Assembly (NCBI RefSeq): GCF_014873765.1
Contig: NZ_JADBGG010000033.1
Location: 1-53,306, forward strand
Length of the DNA stretch: 53,306 nucleotides
DNA from: Desulfomicrobium macestii
GTDB lineage: Bacteria; Desulfobacterota; Desulfovibrionia; Desulfovibrionales; Desulfomicrobiaceae
Direction of reading: 5' to 3'
The position numbers were made by a program, and so were the translations under genes. Each line of letters opens with the position of its first letter. Position 1 is the stretch's first letter. Below are positions 8,631-53,247 of the stretch, in pieces. The notes under the pieces were generated by a model that worked only from the letters and a program-made list of their open reading frames with translations, was not told the origin of the DNA and did not search any database.

Positions 8631-9152
8631 CTATTTCGCGGCCTGCGCTATGATGGCCCGGCAAAATGCGGGCAGATCATCAGGCTTTCGCGCGGATATC
8701 TGATTCCGGTCCACGACAACTTCCTTGTCTACCCACGTAGCGCCGGCGTTTATCAGGTCATCCTTGATGCCGGGGGTGGACGTGCAGGTGAAGCCTTTCA
8801 TGATCCCCGCGGAGATCGGAATCCATCCGCCGTGGCAGATGTGGGCGACTATTTTTCCGGCTTCGTGCATTTCGCGGGTGAGCTCCAGGACCTTTGGGTC
8901 GCGTCTGAGCTTGTCGGGGGCGAACCCGCCGGCAACGATCAGCAGGTCGAAGTCCCTGGCCTGTTGGTCCGCGATGGCGGCTGTGGATTTGAAGGGATAC
9001 CCGTTTTTGCCTGTGTAGACGATTCCCGCCTCGGGCCCGGCCACGACCACTTCGGCGCCTTCTTCGATCAGGCGGTAATATGGGTAGAGAAGCTCCATGT
9101 CTTCAAAGATGTGATCCACAAACATCAGGACTTTCTGGCCTTTCAATTTCAT
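8631..9152 (-). CDS. DJ-1/PfpI family protein (class I glutamine amidotransferase-like)
   Basis: A 173-residue protein of the PfpI/DJ-1 superfamily. The nucleophile-elbow cysteine is C106 in AHICHGGW, with the conserved adjacent histidine, and an early glutamate at E17 (HIFEDMEL) corresponds to the family's acid. Family members are deglycases, chaperones or putative proteases; the exact activity cannot be told from sequence. The ATG at 9152 is preceded by GGAG at six bases; the longer upstream frame lacks family similarity. Probably cytoplasmic. It lies just upstream of the diguanylate cyclase gene on the same strand and could be co-transcribed. Confidence 0.88.
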   Translation of the reverse strand: MKLKGQKVLMFVDHIFEDMELLYPYYRLIEEGAEVVVAGPEAGIVYTGKNGYPFKSTAAIADQQARDFDLLIVAGGFAPDKLRRDPKVLELTREMHEAGKIVAHICHGGWIPISAGIMKGFTCTSTPGIKDDLINAGATWVDKEVVVDRNQISARKPDDLPAFCRAIIAQAAK

Positions 9153-9430
9153 CTTGAACTCCGGTTTGTTAACGGATGATGGGCTTGTAGGGGACAATTC
9201 AAATGTCCACATATGCCAATCTTGAGCCGTATGTCCATGTCGTGACTCGGGTTGAACCCCGCGACAAGAAAAGAGGGCACCCATGTATGGATTCGTTCCC
9301 TGTGTCAAAATGTTTTGAAGGGGGAAAAGGGGGGCGCGTTCGCCTTGGGCTTTTTTGCCGGCAAGAGACACTGTGTTTCACTGACGCGGCAGATCGCCGT
9401 TTTTCAACAGCCTGAGCCCCGGGCGGAGCG

Positions 9431-9766
9431 TCAGAAGGCAAGCAGTTCCTGACGCTCCTCGTCCCAGAGCTTGAGGCGGATGCACGCCAGGCTTTCCCTC
9501 AAGGTCAGGGGCTGTCTGGACTTCAGGGCGGGGAAGGCTTCGAAGCACTCCTTCAGGCGGTAATTCGGGATTCTGGGGCCCAGGTGGTGCACGTGGTGGT
9601 AGCCGATGTTGCCGGAAAACCAGCGCAGCACCGGCGGCAGGTCGTAGAAGGAACTGCCTTCCATGGCGGCGCGTACGGGGTCCCAGTCGTTCCTGCGCGC
9701 CCAGTAGACCCCTTCGAACTGATGCACCGCGCCCCTGTGCGGAAGAGGGAGGAGGTCTTGAATTTT
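9431..9766 (-). pseudogene. Fatty-acid desaturase, C-terminal fragment only
   Basis: About 100 residues match the C-terminal end of membrane fatty-acid desaturases: HQFEGVYWARRNDWD, then FSGNIGYHHVHHLGPRIPNY with the third histidine box HHVHH. A full enzyme has about 330-350 residues with two more histidine boxes and membrane segments; these are absent. The frame continues upstream into unrelated AT-rich sequence without a credible start. The break coincides with GGTCTTGAATTTT (9754-9766), which matches part of the left arm of repeat A, so truncation may have accompanied arrival of the neighbouring ImmA-PIN module. The enzyme cannot be functional. Confidence 0.8.
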
Positions 9767-9822
9767 GCGTAATTCATCAGTGAGTAAAATTTTTCGGGAA
9801 ATGGATAAAAGTTTACGCTTAG

Positions 9823-9859
9823 TTGACAAAAGTTGACATGATTGGTATTTGCCCCGGTT
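9823..9859 (+). promoter_or_regulatory. Candidate promoter of the ImmA-PIN operon with doubled TTGACA box
   Basis: TTGACA occurs twice, at 9823-9828 and 9833-9838, within a 10-base direct repeat of AGTTGACA. The first is spaced 17 bases from a weak -10 (TATTTG, 9846-9851). A start from it would fall almost at ATG 9860, which has no ribosome site, suggesting a near-leaderless message. The doubled box could also be a binding site for the Xre domain of the encoded protein (autoregulation). Confidence 0.4.
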
Positions 9860-11026
9860 ATGAATAAGCGTCTCAATATCGAACTCATCAAGAAGGTCAT
9901 GGATTCTCTGGGGCTCAACAACAGCCAGGTTTCCGAAAGGCTTGCCGTTTCCCGGACCATCGTGGGGGAGTGGCTGGCTGAGAAGAAGTTTCCAAGGCCT
10001 GATAAACTCGTGCGCCTTGGAATGTTGCTCAAACTACCGCATACCGATCTTGTCGTGGACGACGCACCTCTTGCGGCGGTAGTCAACTTTCGCAAGAAGT
10101 CACGCAGGGCCCTGACTGATACGCATTTTGCGGATGCCCTGAAAAAGGCGATGCTCCTTGATTTGATTGCCGACTACCTGCCGGAAGGTTCACTTGAGGT
10201 GCCGCCGGTCCTCAAGAATCCGTCAATGGAGTATGCATACATACAAAAGGCGGTGGCACTGGTCAGAGGTCTGGTTGGCAAGTCCTTGACGGATGTGATC
10301 AACTATTCCGATCTTGTCGAAATTATACATACGTACGACGTTGTTCCCGTGCCGGTTTTCTGGGGCGTGACTTCCTGCAGGGATAATGATGCCCATGGAT
10401 TGCATATTGAATCACCGCGGAGCAAAAAAGAGTGGATATACATCAATCTTGACTCCTATCTTCTTGACTTCAAGTTTTGGGTCGCTCATGAAATAGGTCA
10501 CATCATTACAAAATGCTCCTGTGATGAAGTTTTTTCCGAAAATTTCGCGGAACTTTTCGCCCAATCTTTTCTTTTTCCAGAAGAGATGGCTGCAAAAACA
10601 TATACAAAACTTGTTGGACTCAATGCGAATCAGCTTGTCGTGGAAATGATTGCCCTCGCCGAAACTCTTTTTATCTCCCCGTATACGATATACAAATCCG
10701 TAAATTCATATGCAGTCGAAAACGGATTGGCTCAATTGGAAAAGCTGAACAGTTCGTATGTTGTGATTAAAAAATATGTAGAAAATAAGTCAACATTGAT
10801 TGAAAAACTCCGAAATGATTCGGTGCATAGCTTCGCGCGAAAATACGACGAGTTTCTCTCTCCTGAAGAATATGTGTATTTGGCTGAGACTTATTTTAAA
10901 ACGCCGATTTTTGATTCCCTGAAGAAATTTCTTGGTGAAACATCAAAGGGGGATGGATTTCTTCAATCTCTTTTTGACATTCAAGCAGTCGAAGCAAAAG
11001 AACTGCATTATTATCTGACCCACTGA
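9860..11026 (+). CDS. Xre-type HTH and ImmA/IrrE metallopeptidase fusion (antitoxin/regulator-like)
   Basis: A 388-residue protein. Residues about 5-60 form an Xre-like helix-turn-helix (NNSQVSERLAVSRTIVGEWL). Residues about 130-260 carry an ImmA/IrrE (COG2856) zinc peptidase domain with VAHEIGHII as the HExxH motif and a downstream glutamate in NFAELFAQSFLFPEE as the likely third ligand. A C-terminal helical region of about 130 residues follows. Proteins of this architecture occur as regulators in mobile elements and as antitoxin-like partners in toxin-antitoxin loci. The PIN-domain gene begins 7 bases after the stop, strongly suggesting one operon. The 3' two-thirds is AT-rich compared with the core genome. 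ATG 9860 is chosen over the in-frame TTG at 9842 because homology begins at MNKRLNIEL. Confidence 0.85.
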   Translation: MNKRLNIELIKKVMDSLGLNNSQVSERLAVSRTIVGEWLAEKKFPRPDKLVRLGMLLKLPHTDLVVDDAPLAAVVNFRKKSRRALTDTHFADALKKAMLLDLIADYLPEGSLEVPPVLKNPSMEYAYIQKAVALVRGLVGKSLTDVINYSDLVEIIHTYDVVPVPVFWGVTSCRDNDAHGLHIESPRSKKEWIYINLDSYLLDFKFWVAHEIGHIITKCSCDEVFSENFAELFAQSFLFPEEMAAKTYTKLVGLNANQLVVEMIALAETLFISPYTIYKSVNSYAVENGLAQLEKLNSSYVVIKKYVENKSTLIEKLRNDSVHSFARKYDEFLSPEEYVYLAETYFKTPIFDSLKKFLGETSKGDGFLQSLFDIQAVEAKELHYYLTH

Positions 11027-11033
11027 TATCAAC

Positions 11034-11630
11034 ATGGCGCAATCAAAGATTCTGGTTGATACGAATATATATTTGCGTTTCGCGCAGTCCATCCACCCGC
11101 TTCTTTTTCGTCCCTTTTGCCCTGACGAATTCACACTCTATATAACTCATTGCTTTCAAAGAGAATATGATAGGCAACCTCGGTTGAGGGAAAAGTTTTG
11201 CTGGGTGAATGAAGACATGTATTCCGAAAATAGATCTCAGCGAATCAACATATCAAGTTCTCAACAAAATGAGGCAGCTCTGGCCATTGGCTATATTTCC
11301 GACTACAGTCTGGCCCAGTCTTTAGGCGTTCAGGACGTCGACATAGACATTCTTGCCCACGCCCTTGCCTTGGATGTGCCCGTTGTCACGGATGACAGGG
11401 ATATGACTCTGCTCGCCAACGTGTTCAGCATTGAAGTCTGGAACAGCCTGCAGCTTATGAAGGCAATGCTGGATTGCAATCATGTGTCGCAAAAAGACAT
11501 TGATGCTTTGGTGAACTACATGGAATACATGGAAGACCTGCCTTGGCGCAGGTATGTCCAAGATTATGCCCGAATGTTCCCGCAATCAAAATTCAACACA
11601 AGGGGAGCAGCGTCAGATCTTGAATCTTGA
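11034..11630 (+). CDS. PIN-domain protein (probable toxin-like ribonuclease)
   Basis: A 198-residue protein with PIN-domain acidic motifs: ILVDTN near residue 9, an internal acidic centre in DVDIDILAHALALD, and VVTDDRDM near residues 119-126. PIN proteins are metal-dependent RNases, frequent toxins in VapBC-type and related modules. It is the second gene of a two-gene operon with the Xre-ImmA protein. No good ribosome site is visible, consistent with translational coupling. The final residues (ASDLES) and the stop are encoded by the left arm of repeat A copy 3, so the original C-terminus may have been replaced when the repeat or module arrived. RNase activity and target are inferred. Confidence 0.75.
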   Translation: MAQSKILVDTNIYLRFAQSIHPLLFRPFCPDEFTLYITHCFQREYDRQPRLREKFCWVNEDMYSENRSQRINISSSQQNEAALAIGYISDYSLAQSLGVQDVDIDILAHALALDVPVVTDDRDMTLLANVFSIEVWNSLQLMKAMLDCNHVSQKDIDALVNYMEYMEDLPWRRYVQDYARMFPQSKFNTRGAASDLES

Positions 11631-11859
11631 ATTTTATCAGATAAGATATCACTGCAAAAAGTCGTCATCCCCTTGAAAAAGGGGATCCATGCCTTTTTAA
11701 CTATTTGAAAAGAATGGATTCCCGCCTTCGCGGGAATGACACTCAGGCTCTTTCGCGACTTTTTGCAGTGACGTCAGATAACCCCCGCCTCATGACCCGA
11801 TCCGTTCACTCCAAAACAAGACAAGGGATTTCAGTTTAAAAGCTGAAATCCCTTGCTGT
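11614..11859 (+). repeat. Repeat A, copy 3, interrupted by a MITE-like element
   Basis: The left arm at 11614-11644 overlaps the 3' end of the PIN gene. The right part resumes at 11774 and carries the perfect 12-bp stem AAGGGATTTCAG (11823-11834) with its complement at 11843-11854. Between them lies the 127-bp element at 11647-11773. TCAGATAA is present on both sides of the insert (11637-11644 and 11774-11781), consistent with a target-site duplication. The hairpin may terminate the ImmA-PIN transcript. Confidence 0.75.
11647..11773 (+). mobile_element. MITE-like element, copy 1
   Basis: About 127 bp with imperfect terminal inverted repeats, of the form CGTCACTGCAAAAAGTCG at one end and its complement at the other. 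Inside is a subterminal palindrome (ATTCCCGCCTTCGCGGGAAT) and a second one (CCCCTTGAAAAAGGGG). There is no coding capacity. It is flanked by an 8-bp direct repeat with a 2-base gap on the left. A second copy lies at 18191-18316. A transposase acting in trans would be needed. Confidence 0.7.
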
Positions 11860-11916
11860 TTGCAGTTTTCGTGGTGGATTTATGGATGGCCTTCCACCTG
11901 TTGCCCGGCGAGAGGG

Positions 11917-12786
11917 CTAGAGTTTGTTGACTGGCAGTTTCACGAACTGCGTTCCTGCGATCTCCTGGCCGAACTGCCCGTTGCGCAGGTTGGCCTGAAT
12001 GGAGGGCAGGAGCAGTGGGGGTACGGATTTGCCCGTGTCTTCACGCTGCCTCTGCCGGACAAAATCTTCCTTGCCGATGCCAAGATGCAGACGCACATTG
12101 AGCTTTTTCTGTTCGCCGATGGTGCACATGCACTGCGGACCGCGCCTGTTCTCCGGCGGGTAGTCGTGCCCTACGTAAACGCGGTAGTCGTCGGGCAGGG
12201 CAAAAAGACGGCGCGAGGAGTCGTAGGAATGCTCCGCGCTGCCACCGGGAAAATCGCATCTTCCAGAGCCCACGTCCGGCAGAAAGATGGTGTCGCCGAC
12301 AAAGACGGCGTCGCCGATGACATAGGTCGTGTCCGCGGGGGTATGCCCGGGCGTATGTAGAATTTGGGCCTGCATGTCGCCCACAGTGAACTTTTCGTCG
12401 TTGTCAAAGAGATGGTCGAACTGGGACCCGTCCAGGCTTGTATCGTCCTGGGTCTGGAAGATGGGCACCCATGTGGCGATGATGGTCAGGATATGTTTGC
12501 TGATGGCGATTTTTCCGCCCAGCCGTTCTTTCAGATAATGGGCGGCGGTAAGATGGTCGGCATGGATATGCGTTTCCAGTATCCATTCCACGGCAAGCTG
12601 TTTTTCCTTGATGAAGTCGATGATGATATCCGCGGACCGTGTGCTGGAGGTGCAGGAAGGAAGATCAAAATTCAGCACGCTGTCTATTATGGCGCAACGC
12701 TTTTGTGCACCTGTCTCGGACCAGATCACATACGACCAGGTGGCCGTGTCCTCGTCAAAAAAAGCTCGTACTGTGGGCTTTTGCAT
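11917..12786 (-). CDS. Metallo-beta-lactamase fold hydrolase, persulfide dioxygenase-like (Blh/ETHE1 type)
   Basis: A 289-residue MBL-fold protein. The metal motif THIHADH is at residues 72-78, LHTPGHTPADT supplies a further histidine, FVGDTIFLPDVGSGRCDF the bridging aspartate, and YVGHDYPPENR the last histidine. The AIIDSVLNFD start and GSGRCDFPGG segment are typical of the Blh/ETHE1-like group, which oxidises glutathione persulfide or related sulfane sulfur with a single iron. The gene follows a rhodanese-DUF2892 gene by 18 bases on the same strand, the usual partner in sulfide/persulfide modules. AAGGAG precedes the ATG by seven bases. In an anaerobe it may act in sulfur or oxygen stress. 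Activity is inferred from family and context. Confidence 0.88.
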   Translation of the reverse strand: MQKPTVRAFFDEDTATWSYVIWSETGAQKRCAIIDSVLNFDLPSCTSSTRSADIIIDFIKEKQLAVEWILETHIHADHLTAAHYLKERLGGKIAISKHILTIIATWVPIFQTQDDTSLDGSQFDHLFDNDEKFTVGDMQAQILHTPGHTPADTTYVIGDAVFVGDTIFLPDVGSGRCDFPGGSAEHSYDSSRRLFALPDDYRVYVGHDYPPENRRGPQCMCTIGEQKKLNVRLHLGIGKEDFVRQRQREDTGKSVPPLLLPSIQANLRNGQFGQEIAGTQFVKLPVNKL

Positions 12787-21593: not shown

Positions 21594-23342
21594 TCAATTC
21601 CTCCGCGCGATCTGCGTCCCCTCGAACAGTCCCTGAAAGAAGTTGGCCGCGTTCACGCCCAGCGATCTTATCCTGTATCCGCCTTCCTGCACCACCACCG
21701 TATGCCTGCCCAGGGCGCCGATGAGCCGTCCATTGCGGAAGAAATCCCTGGCCTGCAGACGCCACGTGCCCGTCGGGTCTCCCTTGGCCGGGTCGAGCCC
21801 GAGGCCCACGATGACGAAAGCCGGATCGAAATCGGCCATGACCTTCAGCGCCTGGCGCAAGGTTTCGGCGTATCTCTCACCGTCGACCTCTTCCGGGAGG
21901 GGGTAGTTGCGGTTGTATCCAAGACCCGCTCCCTCCCCGCGCTCCTCCGCGAATCCGCTGAAATACGGATAGGCGAATCTCGGATGGCCGTGAATGGACA
22001 GGGTCAGCACGTCGCTGCGTTCGTAGAAGATGTTCTGGGTGCCGTTGCCGTGGTGGTAGTCCACGTCGAGCACGGCGACACGCCCGTGAGCGCTGAGCCG
22101 GTGGGCGACCACGGCCGACGTGTTGAAATAGCAGAACCCTCCGAAGGCCCGGCGTTCGGCGTGGTGTCCCGGAGGGCGGACCAGGGCGTAGGCCAGGCGG
22201 CGTCCGGCCAGCAGTTCCTCGGCCGCGGTCAGCCCGCAGTCCACGGCCCCGCGCGCTGCTGCATAGGCGTTGCCGTTCAGGGGCGTGAAGGTGTCGATGC
22301 AGTAGTAGCCCGCACGCACGGCCAGTTCCCGGGGCGGGCGGGCGGCGTTTCTGATGGGGAAGACATAGGGATAGACGGATTTTTTCTCGGGGAGGTTCGC
22401 GCAGACCGTTCTGAGGTAGGACACGAACTGCCGGTCGTGGACCTGGGTGATGTGCCGCTCGGCGAAATGCCGGGGTTGCCTGCGCAGGAAGAGGCCCGTC
22501 TTCTCGATTTCTTTCAGGATGGACTTCATGCGCACCGGAGATTCGACATAGCCGCGTTCGCGGATGTGATGGATGGCGTGGTTCTCGTTGCAGATCAGGG
22601 CGATCCTGCGGTCGGCGCTGATGCCCGGAACCCTTGGGGGCGCGGTTTCCCTGACATAGCGGGGCTCGCGCAGGGCCAGATTTCCGGCCGGGATGGAATC
22701 AAGGACCATCTTCACATACTCCGGCGAGCATTTCTCCTTGTATTTGCGTTCCAGCACGGCGCGCACCACGTGGCGAACCCGCTCACGCGAGAGGCGCAAG
22801 GGTTTGTCCAGGGGATCGGCCACCAGGTAGGGCGCGCAGTCGTCCTCGGCGGAGAGGGGCGTCTCGTAGGCCGTGTTGATGACGGGCCGCGCCCCATAGC
22901 GCTCGTAGAAACGCAGCCTGGCGACGTTCTCGCGCAGCAGTTCCGGATCTTGGCACAGGGCCGGATCGTCGGGCAGGCATTCGAAGAAGAGGGCCGTGTC
23001 GCCAAGGGCCTTGGCCTCCTCGCGAACCCGTTCATACAGGGCCGAGCCCACCCCGTGGCCGCCGTGGCGCAGGCTGACCGAGAGATAGTCGAGATAGCAG
23101 AAGCGCAGGTCCGAAAAGTGGCACAGCAGGGCGAATCCCTGTACCAACCTGCGTTGTCCCTCGGCCACGAAGACGATGGTCCGGTATCCCTTGCCAAGGG
23201 GGTTCTTGAGGGTGGCGGGAAGATTCGCGACCTCCTCGGCGGCGATGAGCGGAAAACGTTCGGCCAGGATGGTCTGCACCTGCTCGACGCTCTGGGCGTC
23301 GACGGGCACGGTGGTGTCGTAAATGGGGCGGATGCTGAACAT
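21594..23342 (-). CDS. GNAT acetyltransferase-histone deacetylase (HDAC) fusion protein
   Basis: A 582-residue two-domain protein. Residues about 1-170 form a GNAT domain: a central strand YLDYLSVS followed by the acetyl-CoA loop RHGGHGVGS (92-100). Residues about 245-580 form a zinc deacetylase of the HDAC/acetylpolyamine amidohydrolase superfamily: PGHH at 391-394, metal ligands D428 and H430 in DVDYHHGNGTQ, D517 in GLGLD, and the active-site tyrosine in EGGY (556). All catalytic HDAC residues are present. One chain could thus add and remove acetyl groups, or the GNAT part could recognise the substrate. The substrate (polyamine, protein lysine or metabolite) is unknown. Divergent from the lipoprotein gene; GAGG lies about 7 bases before the ATG. 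Confidence 0.9.
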   Translation of the reverse strand: MFSIRPIYDTTVPVDAQSVEQVQTILAERFPLIAAEEVANLPATLKNPLGKGYRTIVFVAEGQRRLVQGFALLCHFSDLRFCYLDYLSVSLRHGGHGVGSALYERVREEAKALGDTALFFECLPDDPALCQDPELLRENVARLRFYERYGARPVINTAYETPLSAEDDCAPYLVADPLDKPLRLSRERVRHVVRAVLERKYKEKCSPEYVKMVLDSIPAGNLALREPRYVRETAPPRVPGISADRRIALICNENHAIHHIRERGYVESPVRMKSILKEIEKTGLFLRRQPRHFAERHITQVHDRQFVSYLRTVCANLPEKKSVYPYVFPIRNAARPPRELAVRAGYYCIDTFTPLNGNAYAAARGAVDCGLTAAEELLAGRRLAYALVRPPGHHAERRAFGGFCYFNTSAVVAHRLSAHGRVAVLDVDYHHGNGTQNIFYERSDVLTLSIHGHPRFAYPYFSGFAEERGEGAGLGYNRNYPLPEEVDGERYAETLRQALKVMADFDPAFVIVGLGLDPAKGDPTGTWRLQARDFFRNGRLIGALGRHTVVVQEGGYRIRSLGVNAANFFQGLFEGTQIARRN

Positions 23343-49851: not shown

Positions 49852-50122
49852 GAAGTAATCGGCCCTTCCTTTGCCGCAAATCGTCCCGAAGAAACACATA
49901 GCGCATGGTTTTGGGCTCTGGCATATTGAAGCGTGTCGCCGGAGAAGACCGATTAGGCAATGGTGTTTATTGCCCGCGCGCTAGCGTGGTCCTGGGCTAC
50001 GTCATCGACATTGGTGAATCAGGATGCGGTATTATGCGCATTTTGATATCCCGTTTGAGAGAGTGATTAAGACGACGTTCCCAATCCGGCGGCATAATAA
50101 CTTTCTGGAATGGGAGGACGTT
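49852..50122 (+). ncRNA. Candidate bridge RNA region of the IS110 element
   Basis: IS110 elements with a long left end encode a structured guide (bridge) RNA there. This 271-base stretch is non-coding, contains several complementary segments (for example GCGCGCTAGC and GGTGTTTATTGCCC surroundings), and fits that position. Loops were not resolved by eye. Confidence 0.4.
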
Positions 50123-51466
50123 ATGGCACGCAGCACCCGAGCGTCGAAAAAAACAAGACTAACTCTAACCCATCCTAACGCCGCCGGTATAGATATCGGT
50201 AGTGGTTCGCATTTTTGCGCGGTACCTCCTGACCGAGACGATGATCCCGTGCGCGAGTTCAAGAGCTACACTGTTGATCTTGAACGGCTAGCGTCTTGGC
50301 TTAAGGAGTGTGGCGTCGATATCGTGGCCATGGAATCCACAGGGGTCTATTGGATTCCTTTGTTTGAGCTTTTGGAACGTCGTGGCTTTACCGTGCTGCT
50401 GGTCAATGCGAGACATGTGAAGAATGTTTCCGGGCGCAAAAGCGATGTTCTGGATTGTCAATGGCTCCAACAACTCATGAGCTACGGTTTGCTGCGCGGA
50501 GCTTTTCGTCCTGCTGATGAGGTCTGTGTTCTTCGTGCACTGACTCGGCAACGTGCGATGTTACTTCGTTCACAGGCCAGACACGTGCAGCACATGCAAA
50601 AGGCATTGACCCAGATGAATATTCAACTTGCCAATGTAATTTCAGATATCGTTGGTGAAAGCGGTTTGAAGATTTTACGCGCCATCAATGCCGGAGAGCG
50701 TAACGGACATAAGCTTGCGTTACTCAAGAACTCGCGCATTCAGGCGAGCGTGGATGAAATTGCTAAAAGTTTGCAGGGTAGTTGGCGTGCCGAACATTTG
50801 TTCAGCCTGAAGCAGGCTCTGGATGGATTTGATTTTTGCGGTATTCAACTCGCAGAGTGTGATGCCGAAATCGAAGATCAGCTCCAGCGTCTTCATGCTC
50901 ATGAAGGCGAACCGACCAAGGGCAAAAAGCACAGCCGAAGCCGTAATGCTCCTAAGTTTGACCTGCGCAGTCGACTTTATCAGATGTGTGGAGTGGACCT
51001 GACGCGTATTGACGGTATCGATGTTACGACCGCGTTGGCAGTCATATCCGAGATAGGCGCTGATATTTCTCGTTTTCCCAGCGACAAGCATTTTGCATCA
51101 TGGCTTGGTTTGTGTCCGGGCACTAAAATTACCGGAGGTAAGGTCATGAGCGGCAAAACGAAGAAATGCGCGAATCGAGCTGCGCAAGCCCTGCGCCTTG
51201 CTGCCGCCGCGCTTTGTTCAAGCCAATCTGCTTTGGGAGCATATTTTCGGCGTATGTGTTCACGTATGGACAAGCCCAAGGCTGTCACCGCGGCCGCTCA
51301 CAAGCTTGCCCGGTTGGTATATGCCATGTTGACCAAGGGTGAGGAGTACACCGACAAGGGCCAAGAATATTTTGAAGAACGATATCGTGAACGAGTCCTG
51401 CGCAACCTTTCCCAGCGTGCCAAGCAAATGGGCATGCAGCTCATACCAACAGAACAAATGACTTAG
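50123..51466 (+). CDS. IS110-family transposase
   Basis: A 447-residue protein. The N-terminal RuvC-like DEDD domain has [14 protein letters not shown] (first Asp), AMESTGVYW (Glu) and [13 protein letters not shown] (Asp pair). A coiled-coil middle follows, then a C-terminal Tnp_20 domain with [35 protein letters not shown] carrying the catalytic serine, and [25 protein letters not shown] lies four bases before ATG 50123; the upstream extension to 50024 is not family-like. Intact and full length, so probably active. Confidence 0.93.
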
Positions 51467-51831
51467 AAAACATGGATGAGTGTTTCTTGAGAGCCGATCG
51501 GCAAGGGTGTCCATCGCGAGGTGGAATCTGAAGGAAGCCGCAGGCAAAACCCTGGCTCGACGAACAGAAACCGCATATGAGGCGGCCGCGCTGGATGAGA
51601 AGGCAAATATCTTCAAAGTCCAATACCTGTACGGAAGGCGCGGACGTAAATGCGGCGGGCATAAGGGGGAAGGTGGGTGTGCATTACCCGGGGAGATCTG
51701 GGCGTTTGCCATGTGCTACCCGCGTCGAGAGGCGCGGGGATGAGCGTCCAGAAGTCAGCAGAGGTCATAGTAGGTCCCTCGACCGGACTGAAGGACCGAA
51801 CATGTAACATGGGGCAGGAGCCGGAATTTCG

Positions 51832-53247
51832 ATGACCAGCAGTAACGCAGAAGGGCAGAGACATTCTGCCGCCATGACCAAGGGTAGGGGACGGAATCCC
51901 CGAGAGCAGGTGCGCGGTGCGGATGGGGTCACGGGAAGGATGGGGCACTCCTGGCCGAAGGCTATGGACGTGATGGAAGCGGTGGTCGAACGCGAGAACA
52001 TGAGCGCCGCGGCAAAGCGTGTGCGCAGCAACAAGGGTGTCCCCGGCGTCGACGGCATGCGTGTCGAAGACGTCTGGGGGTATTACGGTCCTCATATCGA
52101 GAAGTCACTTCTGGACGGAAGCTACGAACCGCAACCGGTTCTGGGGGTCGAGATCCCCAAGCCCGGCGGCGGTACACGGCAACTGGGCATCCCCACGGCC
52201 ATGGACCGTCTGGTTCAGCAGGCGCTGCACCAAGTGCTTACGCCGATCTTCAATCCCGGCTTCTCCGAATCAAGCTACGGGTTCCGTCCCGGTAGAAGCG
52301 CGCATCAGGCCGTGCAGAAGGCACGGGAGCATGTCGCCGCCGGCAAACGATTCGTGGTGGACATGGATCTGGAGAAGTTCTTCGATCGCGTGAACCATGA
52401 CGTGCTTATGGCACGCGTGAGGCGCAAGGTCGGGGACAAGCGGGTGCTCGGCCTTATCCGCCGGTTCCTGCAAGCGGGGCTGATGACGGGCGGGATGTGC
52501 AGTCAGCGGTCGGAGGGCTCTCCGCAAGGAGGTCCTCTCTCTCCGCTGCTGTCGAACATCCTACTGGATGATCTGGACAAGGAACTCGAACGCCGAGGTC
52601 GTGCGTTCTGCCGGTACGCGGATGACTGCAACATCTATGTGCGCACCCGCCGCTCGGGGGAGCGCGTCATGGCCTCGGTCAGCCGGTATCTGCAAACCCG
52701 GCTGAAGCTTCAGGTGAACGCCACCAAGAGTGCGGTGGACCGGCCCTGGAACCGCAAGTTCCTGGGTTACAGCATGACGGCTCACAAACAGCCACGGCTG
52801 AAGGTGGCCCCTGCGGTGGTCGCGCGGTTGAAAGACTCGGTGCGCGAGGTTTGTCGCAAGGGACGCGGTCGATCCCTGCAAACGGTGATCGACGGGCTCT
52901 CGCTGAAGCGACGGGGCTGGGTGAACTACTTCAAGCTGTCCGAAGTGAAGAACGTATTCGAGGAACTTGACGGATGGATTCGGCGTCGATTGCGCTTAAT
53001 CCTTTGGCGTCAGTGGAAAAGGTGGCATACCCGGGCCAAGAAGCTGATGCAGAGAGGCTTGAGTGAGGCGCGTTCGTGGAAGTCAGCCACCAATGGGCAT
53101 GGGCCGTGGTGGAACTCGGGGGCCTCGCATATGAACGCGGCTCTACCCAAGAAGTACTTCGATAACTTAGGACTTGTGTCGCTGCTTGATCACTACCGTA
53201 AACTTCAATGTGTTATTACTCCGAGCCCTAAACAGTTAACATTTTAG
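51832..53247 (+). CDS. ltrA: Group II intron reverse transcriptase/maturase
   Basis: A 471-residue protein with reverse transcriptase blocks (NKGVPGVDGM; IPKPGGGTRQLGIPTAMDRL; SSYGFRPGRSAHQAV; VVDMDLEKFFDRVNHD; SPQGGPLSPLLSNILLDDLD; CRYADDCNIY with the catalytic YADD near residue 261). The maturase X domain is GWVNYFKLSEVKNVFEELDGWIRRRLR, seen by its W and R positions, and a C-terminal LGLVSLLDHYRKLQCV follows. No HNH endonuclease domain. The last residues (ITPSPKQLTF) look non-native, indicating a 3' junction near 53214. CAGGAG precedes the ATG by about 11 bases. Confidence 0.9.
   Translation: MTSSNAEGQRHSAAMTKGRGRNPREQVRGADGVTGRMGHSWPKAMDVMEAVVERENMSAAAKRVRSNKGVPGVDGMRVEDVWGYYGPHIEKSLLDGSYEPQPVLGVEIPKPGGGTRQLGIPTAMDRLVQQALHQVLTPIFNPGFSESSYGFRPGRSAHQAVQKAREHVAAGKRFVVDMDLEKFFDRVNHDVLMARVRRKVGDKRVLGLIRRFLQAGLMTGGMCSQRSEGSPQGGPLSPLLSNILLDDLDKELERRGRAFCRYADDCNIYVRTRRSGERVMASVSRYLQTRLKLQVNATKSAVDRPWNRKFLGYSMTAHKQPRLKVAPAVVARLKDSVREVCRKGRGRSLQTVIDGLSLKRRGWVNYFKLSEVKNVFEELDGWIRRRLRLILWRQWKRWHTRAKKLMQRGLSEARSWKSATNGHGPWWNSGASHMNAALPKKYFDNLGLVSLLDHYRKLQCVITPSPKQLTF

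Follow-up and report, generated by a model that had tools for sequence, protein, structure and literature searches.

A GNAT-zinc deacetylase fusion protein from Desulfomicrobium macestii and its linkage to a KamA/ATP-grasp operon

Several described systems share parts of the architecture reported here. In Bacillus, the reversible acetylation of acetyl-CoA synthetase by AcuA and AcuC brings together a GNAT and a classical zinc deacetylase, as our protein does, but AcuA and AcuC are encoded by two genes, whereas the fusion is a single gene with a deacetylase nearest to another cluster and with KamA and ligases as its recurrent neighbors. The acetylpolyamine amidohydrolases (ApaH, cluster 4; PDB: 9gkz, 6phr, and 3q9b) are 35–38% identical to the C-terminal half of the fusion over 335–343 aligned columns, superimpose with TM values of 0.87–0.90 to target, and have in common with it the RPPGHH and EGGY motifs and an aligned L2-loop region; the fusion differs in having a GNAT attached, in the replacement of Glu106 and Glu117, and in carrying PTG in place of PIS. 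The AblA/AblB pathway for the osmolyte Nε-acetyl-β-lysine combines a lysine 2,3-aminomutase-type KamA with a GNAT, as does the operon described below, to which two ATP-grasp ligases and the deacetylase are extra. Finally, members of the GNAT superfamily (RimI, Gcn5, AAC(6'), and the tandem GNAT 2wpx) share their fold, G-x-G loop, and motif B Asn and Tyr with the N-terminal half of the fusion, which is without a close sequence relative in NCBIfam or the PDB and, in a sample of 297 genomes, is always found in a fusion-length frame. GNAT and ApaH-type deacetylase chemistry are thus already known in kind, but in searches of openly licensed PMC papers we recognized no description of either the stable fusion or the operon, and the KamA/ATP-grasp pathway is apparently undescribed. 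In a survey of classical bacterial deacylases, the terms "fused," "additional domain," "multidomain," and "Desulfo" are absent from the main text (PMC11532494).

Architecture and occurrence of the fusion

The window, that is, the whole stretch of D. macestii DNA analyzed (53,306 nucleotides), carries at 21594-23342 one long open reading frame on the minus strand (the sequence-only reading named no strand), running from an ATG at 23342 to a stop at 21594, with the following features:

21594..23342, minus strand: gene for the GNAT-HDAC fusion of 582 aa, starting with the ATG at 23342 (from the open reading frame, Pfam matches, and homologs)
22803..23342, minus strand: GNAT domain, residues about 1–180, with the G97-x-G99 loop, E121, N139, and Y146
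22608..22802, minus strand: helical linker, residues about 181–245, with helices at 186–200 and 207–215 and conserved columns
21618..22607, minus strand: zinc deacetylase domain of the acetylpolyamine-amidohydrolase clade, residues about 246–575, with H393, H394, D428, H430, D517, Y556, and P523-T524-G525

The sequence-only reading of this gene, that a GNAT and an HDAC are joined in one chain, is borne out by the single 582-aa frame and by Pfam matches for each domain: Hist_deacetyl (PF00850) covers residues 266–571 (E = 4.3e-75; 253.2 bits against a curated cut-off of 27.9), and residues 54–150 match the GNAT families PF13508 (E = 1.2e-6) and PF00583 (E = 1.2e-5), each above its curated cut-off. 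The protein matches no NCBIfam model at E ≤ 0.01, including the AblB model TIGR03827. In an alignment of 68 fusions, selected from the relatives' and genome-contig loci, H393, H394, D428, H430, D517, and Y556 are invariant (68/68), so that the metal site of the HDAC half, which had been called complete, indeed appears so; G97, G99, and E121 of the GNAT half are likewise identical in 68/68 and N139 and Y146 in 67/68. With an invariant zinc site and catalytic residues on one side and conserved GNAT residues on the other, both halves look as if they have been kept for function, and the earlier view that folds for opposite reactions share one polypeptide holds up at the level of conserved catalytic residues.

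A full-length structural model built from the 68 aligned fusions has a mean pLDDT of 88.1 and a pTM of 0.90. Its best Foldseek match is ApaH 9gkz (E = 3.5e-31, TM 0.90 to target), which is also the closest solved deacetylase by sequence (E = 3e-74), and the alignment together with the fold match to deacetylases is consistent with residues positioned for zinc. Two weak stretches, at about 261–270 and 321–350 (block-mean pLDDT 51–60), are in our reading of the alignment the counterparts of loops L1 and L2 in acetylpolyamine amidohydrolases; the prediction is of a monomer, and in ApaH these two loops make the head-to-head dimer contacts. Because the 50 structure matches listed for the full model are all, by title, deacetylases or deacetylase-like hydrolases, we modeled the GNAT half separately (pLDDT 92.1, pTM 0.88); the 50 matches listed for this model are GNATs, some of them CoA-bound, with Z = 13.8–15.9.

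The putative acetyl-CoA site was examined by fold and motif. The GNAT fold is matched and G97 and G99 are invariant, but neither register tried shows conservation of the Gln or Arg that opens the classical pyrophosphate-loop motif, [QR]xxGx[GA]. With G97-x-G99 as the glycine pair, the first position is residue 94, which is T in 44 of the 68 sequences, M in 6, G in 4, A in 4, and other residues in the remainder, never Q or R; with G95-x-G97, a register that fits the window's protein (R92), the first position is R in 16, Q in 8, K in 10, and otherwise something else, and G95 is present in 60/68.

A full-length homolog of the fusion, 57–100% identical, is found in 17 of 41 genomes (its own and 40 relatives). 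A scan of genome contigs for the GNAT half yielded 432 relatives, and among the 80 loci analyzed (best of 432), which come from many phyla, 77 contain one unbroken fused frame; two of the other three are apparently frameshifted and one is cut by a contig end. Given these homologs and unbroken frames, the fusion is neither a chance event nor an assembly product. A GNAT-half profile run against 297 genomes of the phylum gave 28 matches (E ≤ 1e-15), and every one lies in a frame of 577 aa or more, long enough for the linker and deacetylase; by this criterion, which uses open-frame length only, no stand-alone GNAT half is present among the 28, and so no split form offers a hint at function.

At one locus (G067, contig C6), an apparent open frame of 24479 aa adjoins a stretch of N (5001 of 12001 bases) and was taken as an artifact. 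Near the fusion gene of bacterium HR40 lies a second deacetylase-like frame of 609 aa (L049:13928-15757), with a deacetylase match at about 373–599 and an N-terminal extension unlike the GNAT half of the fusion. In the window itself, Rfam at the gathering threshold finds no RNA near the fusion gene; its three matches all lie beyond 48 kb, and two of them are group II intron RNA (51510-51796, plus strand). By our reading of the sequences, this intron RNA is preceded by what looks like an IS110-type transposase (50024-51466) and followed by a reverse-transcriptase-like frame (51832-53247, plus strand).

A KamA/ATP-grasp/GNAT2 operon and its association with the fusion

We surveyed the neighbors of the fusion in the 80 loci (best of 432), with flanks of up to 8 kb, many of which end at contig ends. 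An open-frame search with cluster profiles identified four recurrent co-directional neighbors: a KamA homolog (39 loci), two ATP-grasp proteins, A (40) and B (41), and a second GNAT, GNAT2 (41). KamA and both ATP-grasp genes occur together in 38/80 loci, and all four genes in 37/80; the 38 include 10 from Thermodesulfobacteriota, 10 from Chloroflexota, 8 from Myxococcota, 2 each from Calditrichota and KSB1, 2 labeled Pseudomonadota, and 1 from Acidobacteriota. The survey of occurrence and neighbors that had been suggested as a check thus yields an intact fusion with recurrent partners, and the fusion is more general than first noted.

In 36/80 loci, none of the four genes is nearby, but 32 of these 36 genomes have ATP-grasp A elsewhere (E ≤ 1e-80). 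This search covered 25 + 13 genomes, 24 + 12 of which belong to the unlinked loci; in the other two (L066 and L058) a ligase gene lies near the fusion, and ATP-grasp A was matched there too. The fusion genomes without ATP-grasp A at this threshold are from Lentisphaerota (G342), Nitrospirota (G345), Omnitrophota (G346), and Chloroflexota (G350); G350 and G342 have a KamA match, and G345 and G346 have none at E ≤ 1e-40. In D. macestii itself, the KamA, ATP-grasp A, ATP-grasp B, and GNAT2 genes form an operon on another contig (genome G000, contig C17, about 8681-12462, equivalent to L101:5682-9463), unlinked to the fusion and therefore invisible from the window. This four-gene operon seems to merit study of its own.

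The association is also seen across genomes. Operon-type KamA is present in 17/17 genomes with the fusion versus 4/24 without it (41 genomes; Fisher p = 5e-8), and ATP-grasp A (E ≤ 1e-80) in 27/28 versus 76/269 genomes of the 297-genome phylum sample (p = 6e-13), although both p values overstate the case because close relatives are not independent and shared ancestry is uncorrected; the direct linkage in several phyla is independent of the p values. In one fusion genome of the 297 (G111), ATP-grasp B is present but ATP-grasp A has no strong match. The relation is one-sided: no fusion was detected in 76 of the 103 phylum genomes with ATP-grasp A, which means that the pathway can do without the fusion, and among the relatives, G002, G003, G017 (KamA and ATP-grasp A only), and G007 (63% complete) have operon genes and no fusion. 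This argues for the fusion as an addition to the pathway, outside its core.

The operon varies in form. One genome encodes ATP-grasp B fused to GNAT2 in a single 600-aa frame (L108:6120-7922, minus strand); G318 carries the KamA/ATP-grasp operon twice on contig C1 (L121 and L122), plus an unlinked fusion (L120); and the shortened cluster of G017 (L102:4956-7212) is limited to KamA and ATP-grasp A, with a 103-aa frame behind them. A gene that we read as an NtrC-type regulator recurs in 19/67 operon loci, and no conserved transporter was recognized beside the operon among the clusters listed.

The best NCBIfam match of the operon KamA is AblA, but its 475 bits fall short of the 525.4 required for an equivalog, which leaves its substrate uncertain. 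Its matches to lysine 2,3-aminomutase (PDB: 2a5h) reach E = 6e-132 and 6e-137. The counterparts of D293 and D330 of 2a5h, which we take to be the Asp pair that holds the lysine side chain, are both invariant in 13 aligned KamA sequences and were both found by pattern search in 60/62 operon KamA proteins, the other two matching at one site only. With lysine 2,3-aminomutase as the nearest relative and the lysine-site Asp residues kept, the likely first product is β-lysine. Ddl-type ATP-grasp ligases join amino acids by amide bonds; the operon's ATP-grasp proteins have a C-terminal domain of the D-Ala-D-Ala ligase type, with the four that were scanned scoring under every Ddl cut-off listed.

The operon is distinct from the AblA/AblB system, which in D. 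macestii is represented by an ordinary acetyl-β-lysine pair, AblB beside a KamA homolog, on a further contig (C35:31694-33773). Since this pair is separate and four of the 17 fusion genomes (G008, G012, G014, and G025) have no AblB match, the fusion is independent of the AblAB pathway; AblAB as its partner was set aside also for its weaker association (13/17 versus 4/24 genomes). Elsewhere, a Na+ riboswitch controls ablA (PMC9337991). In 19 operon loci scanned at the Rfam gathering threshold, the two matches were a TPP riboswitch and a tRNA, and no riboswitch is tied to the operon, so we do not favor an osmolyte function on regulatory grounds, though the operon may still be under osmotic control.

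Proposed role of the fusion and alternatives

From linkage and co-occurrence, the fusion very probably belongs to the KamA/ATP-grasp pathway, and this turns its substrate into a testable question. That it serves there as a tailoring or turnover enzyme of a lysine-derived small molecule made by KamA, the two ATP-grasp ligases, and GNAT2 is a proposal to which we give about an even chance, and a small molecule of the lysine or β-lysine type as its substrate seems to us about as likely as not. KamA would convert L-lysine to β-lysine, the two Ddl-like ligases would form amide bonds between β-lysine and other building blocks, and GNAT2 would acetylate an amine; on this reading the pathway product would be an N-acetylated amide of the β-lysine type. 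Because its nearest solved relatives are acetylpolyamine amidohydrolases, the deacetylase half may act on an acetylated aminoalkyl chain, removing N-acetyl from the product or an intermediate to give acetate and a free amine; an acetylated amine on the β-lysine chain would resemble acetyl-cadaverine in shape. The fused GNAT half, in turn, would transfer acetyl from acetyl-CoA to an amine of the same pathway, and the fusion could then protect and deprotect an amine or control the product pool in an on/off fashion. That the two halves share a single compound as substrate is a tentative suggestion, and it is equally tentative that the chain reversibly acetylates a single amine of a β-lysine-containing amide, with the acetyl-CoA level setting how much of the pool is masked and how much is active and cationic. 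The sequence-only reading had put forward a switch on one substrate or a channeled remodeling enzyme, both of which stay candidate roles.

Should the halves indeed work on the same compound, it would be unusual for one polypeptide to combine such opposing reactions, and the operon's product would be a new lysine-derived metabolite to seek in anaerobes. An orphan two-domain enzyme is now tied to a defined, apparently uncharacterized operon that occurs in sulfate reducers and as far afield as Chloroflexota, Myxococcota, and Calditrichota.

A protein-lysine acetylation switch, in which the GNAT acetylates and the HDAC deacetylates one protein in the manner of AcuA/AcuC, would also account for two folds with catalytic residues present, and the cluster-4 enzyme PsApaH deacetylates acetylated peptides and acetylated BsAcsA as well (PMC11532494). 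We nevertheless consider it unlikely, given that the genes recurring most often beside the fusion encode KamA, a GNAT, and ATP-grasp ligases, with no recurrent protein target, acetyl-CoA synthetase included, recognized among the annotated neighbors. Moreover, the closest relatives of the deacetylase half are ApaH enzymes (cluster 4) rather than AcuC (cluster 2), and 15 of the 17 fusion genomes have a second HDAC match (34–42% identical) that could deacetylate proteins.

The sequence-only reading had named polyamines and lysine as possible substrates, and the operon context partly displaces these guesses, pointing to a small molecule derived from lysine or β-lysine and away from polyamines. An enzyme that acetylates and deacetylates polyamines (acetyl-putrescine, -cadaverine, or -spermidine) would fit the close relation of the deacetylase half to ApaH and the retained RPPGHH and EGGY motifs, but the fusion's genomic partner is a lysine-aminomutase-like operon, and the acidic residues for polyamine binding are mostly gone. 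The equivalent of MrApaH Glu106 is Ala341, in a column that is mostly Pro or Ala (P in 47 sequences, A in 13, S in 3, E in 2, L in 2, and T in 1; n = 68); that of MrApaH Glu117, presumably the residue for the polyamine amines, is Phe352, F in 68/68; and the PIS/PEG gatekeeper at the rim is P523-T524-G525 in 68/68, with PIS absent. The loss of these acidic residues makes a polyamine substrate less likely, to the point where we regard it as improbable, and a label of "acetylpolyamine amidohydrolase" assigned by similarity may mislead on substrate. It should be noted that PsApaH has His106 in place of Glu106 and yet works on polyamines, so that the loss of Glu106 does not by itself exclude them, and that the ApaH relatives of known structure act on acetylated aminoalkyl chains (PMC11532494).

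We think it similarly improbable that the deacetylase alone is enzymatic and that the GNAT half is an acetyl-CoA sensor or an allosteric or dimerization module, as its weak matches to GNAT models, a best PDB sequence match of E = 0.065, and the unconserved Gln/Arg of the pyrophosphate loop might suggest, since its fold matches GNATs of known activity and the conservation of G-x-G, E121, N139, and Y146 comes close to that of the zinc site.
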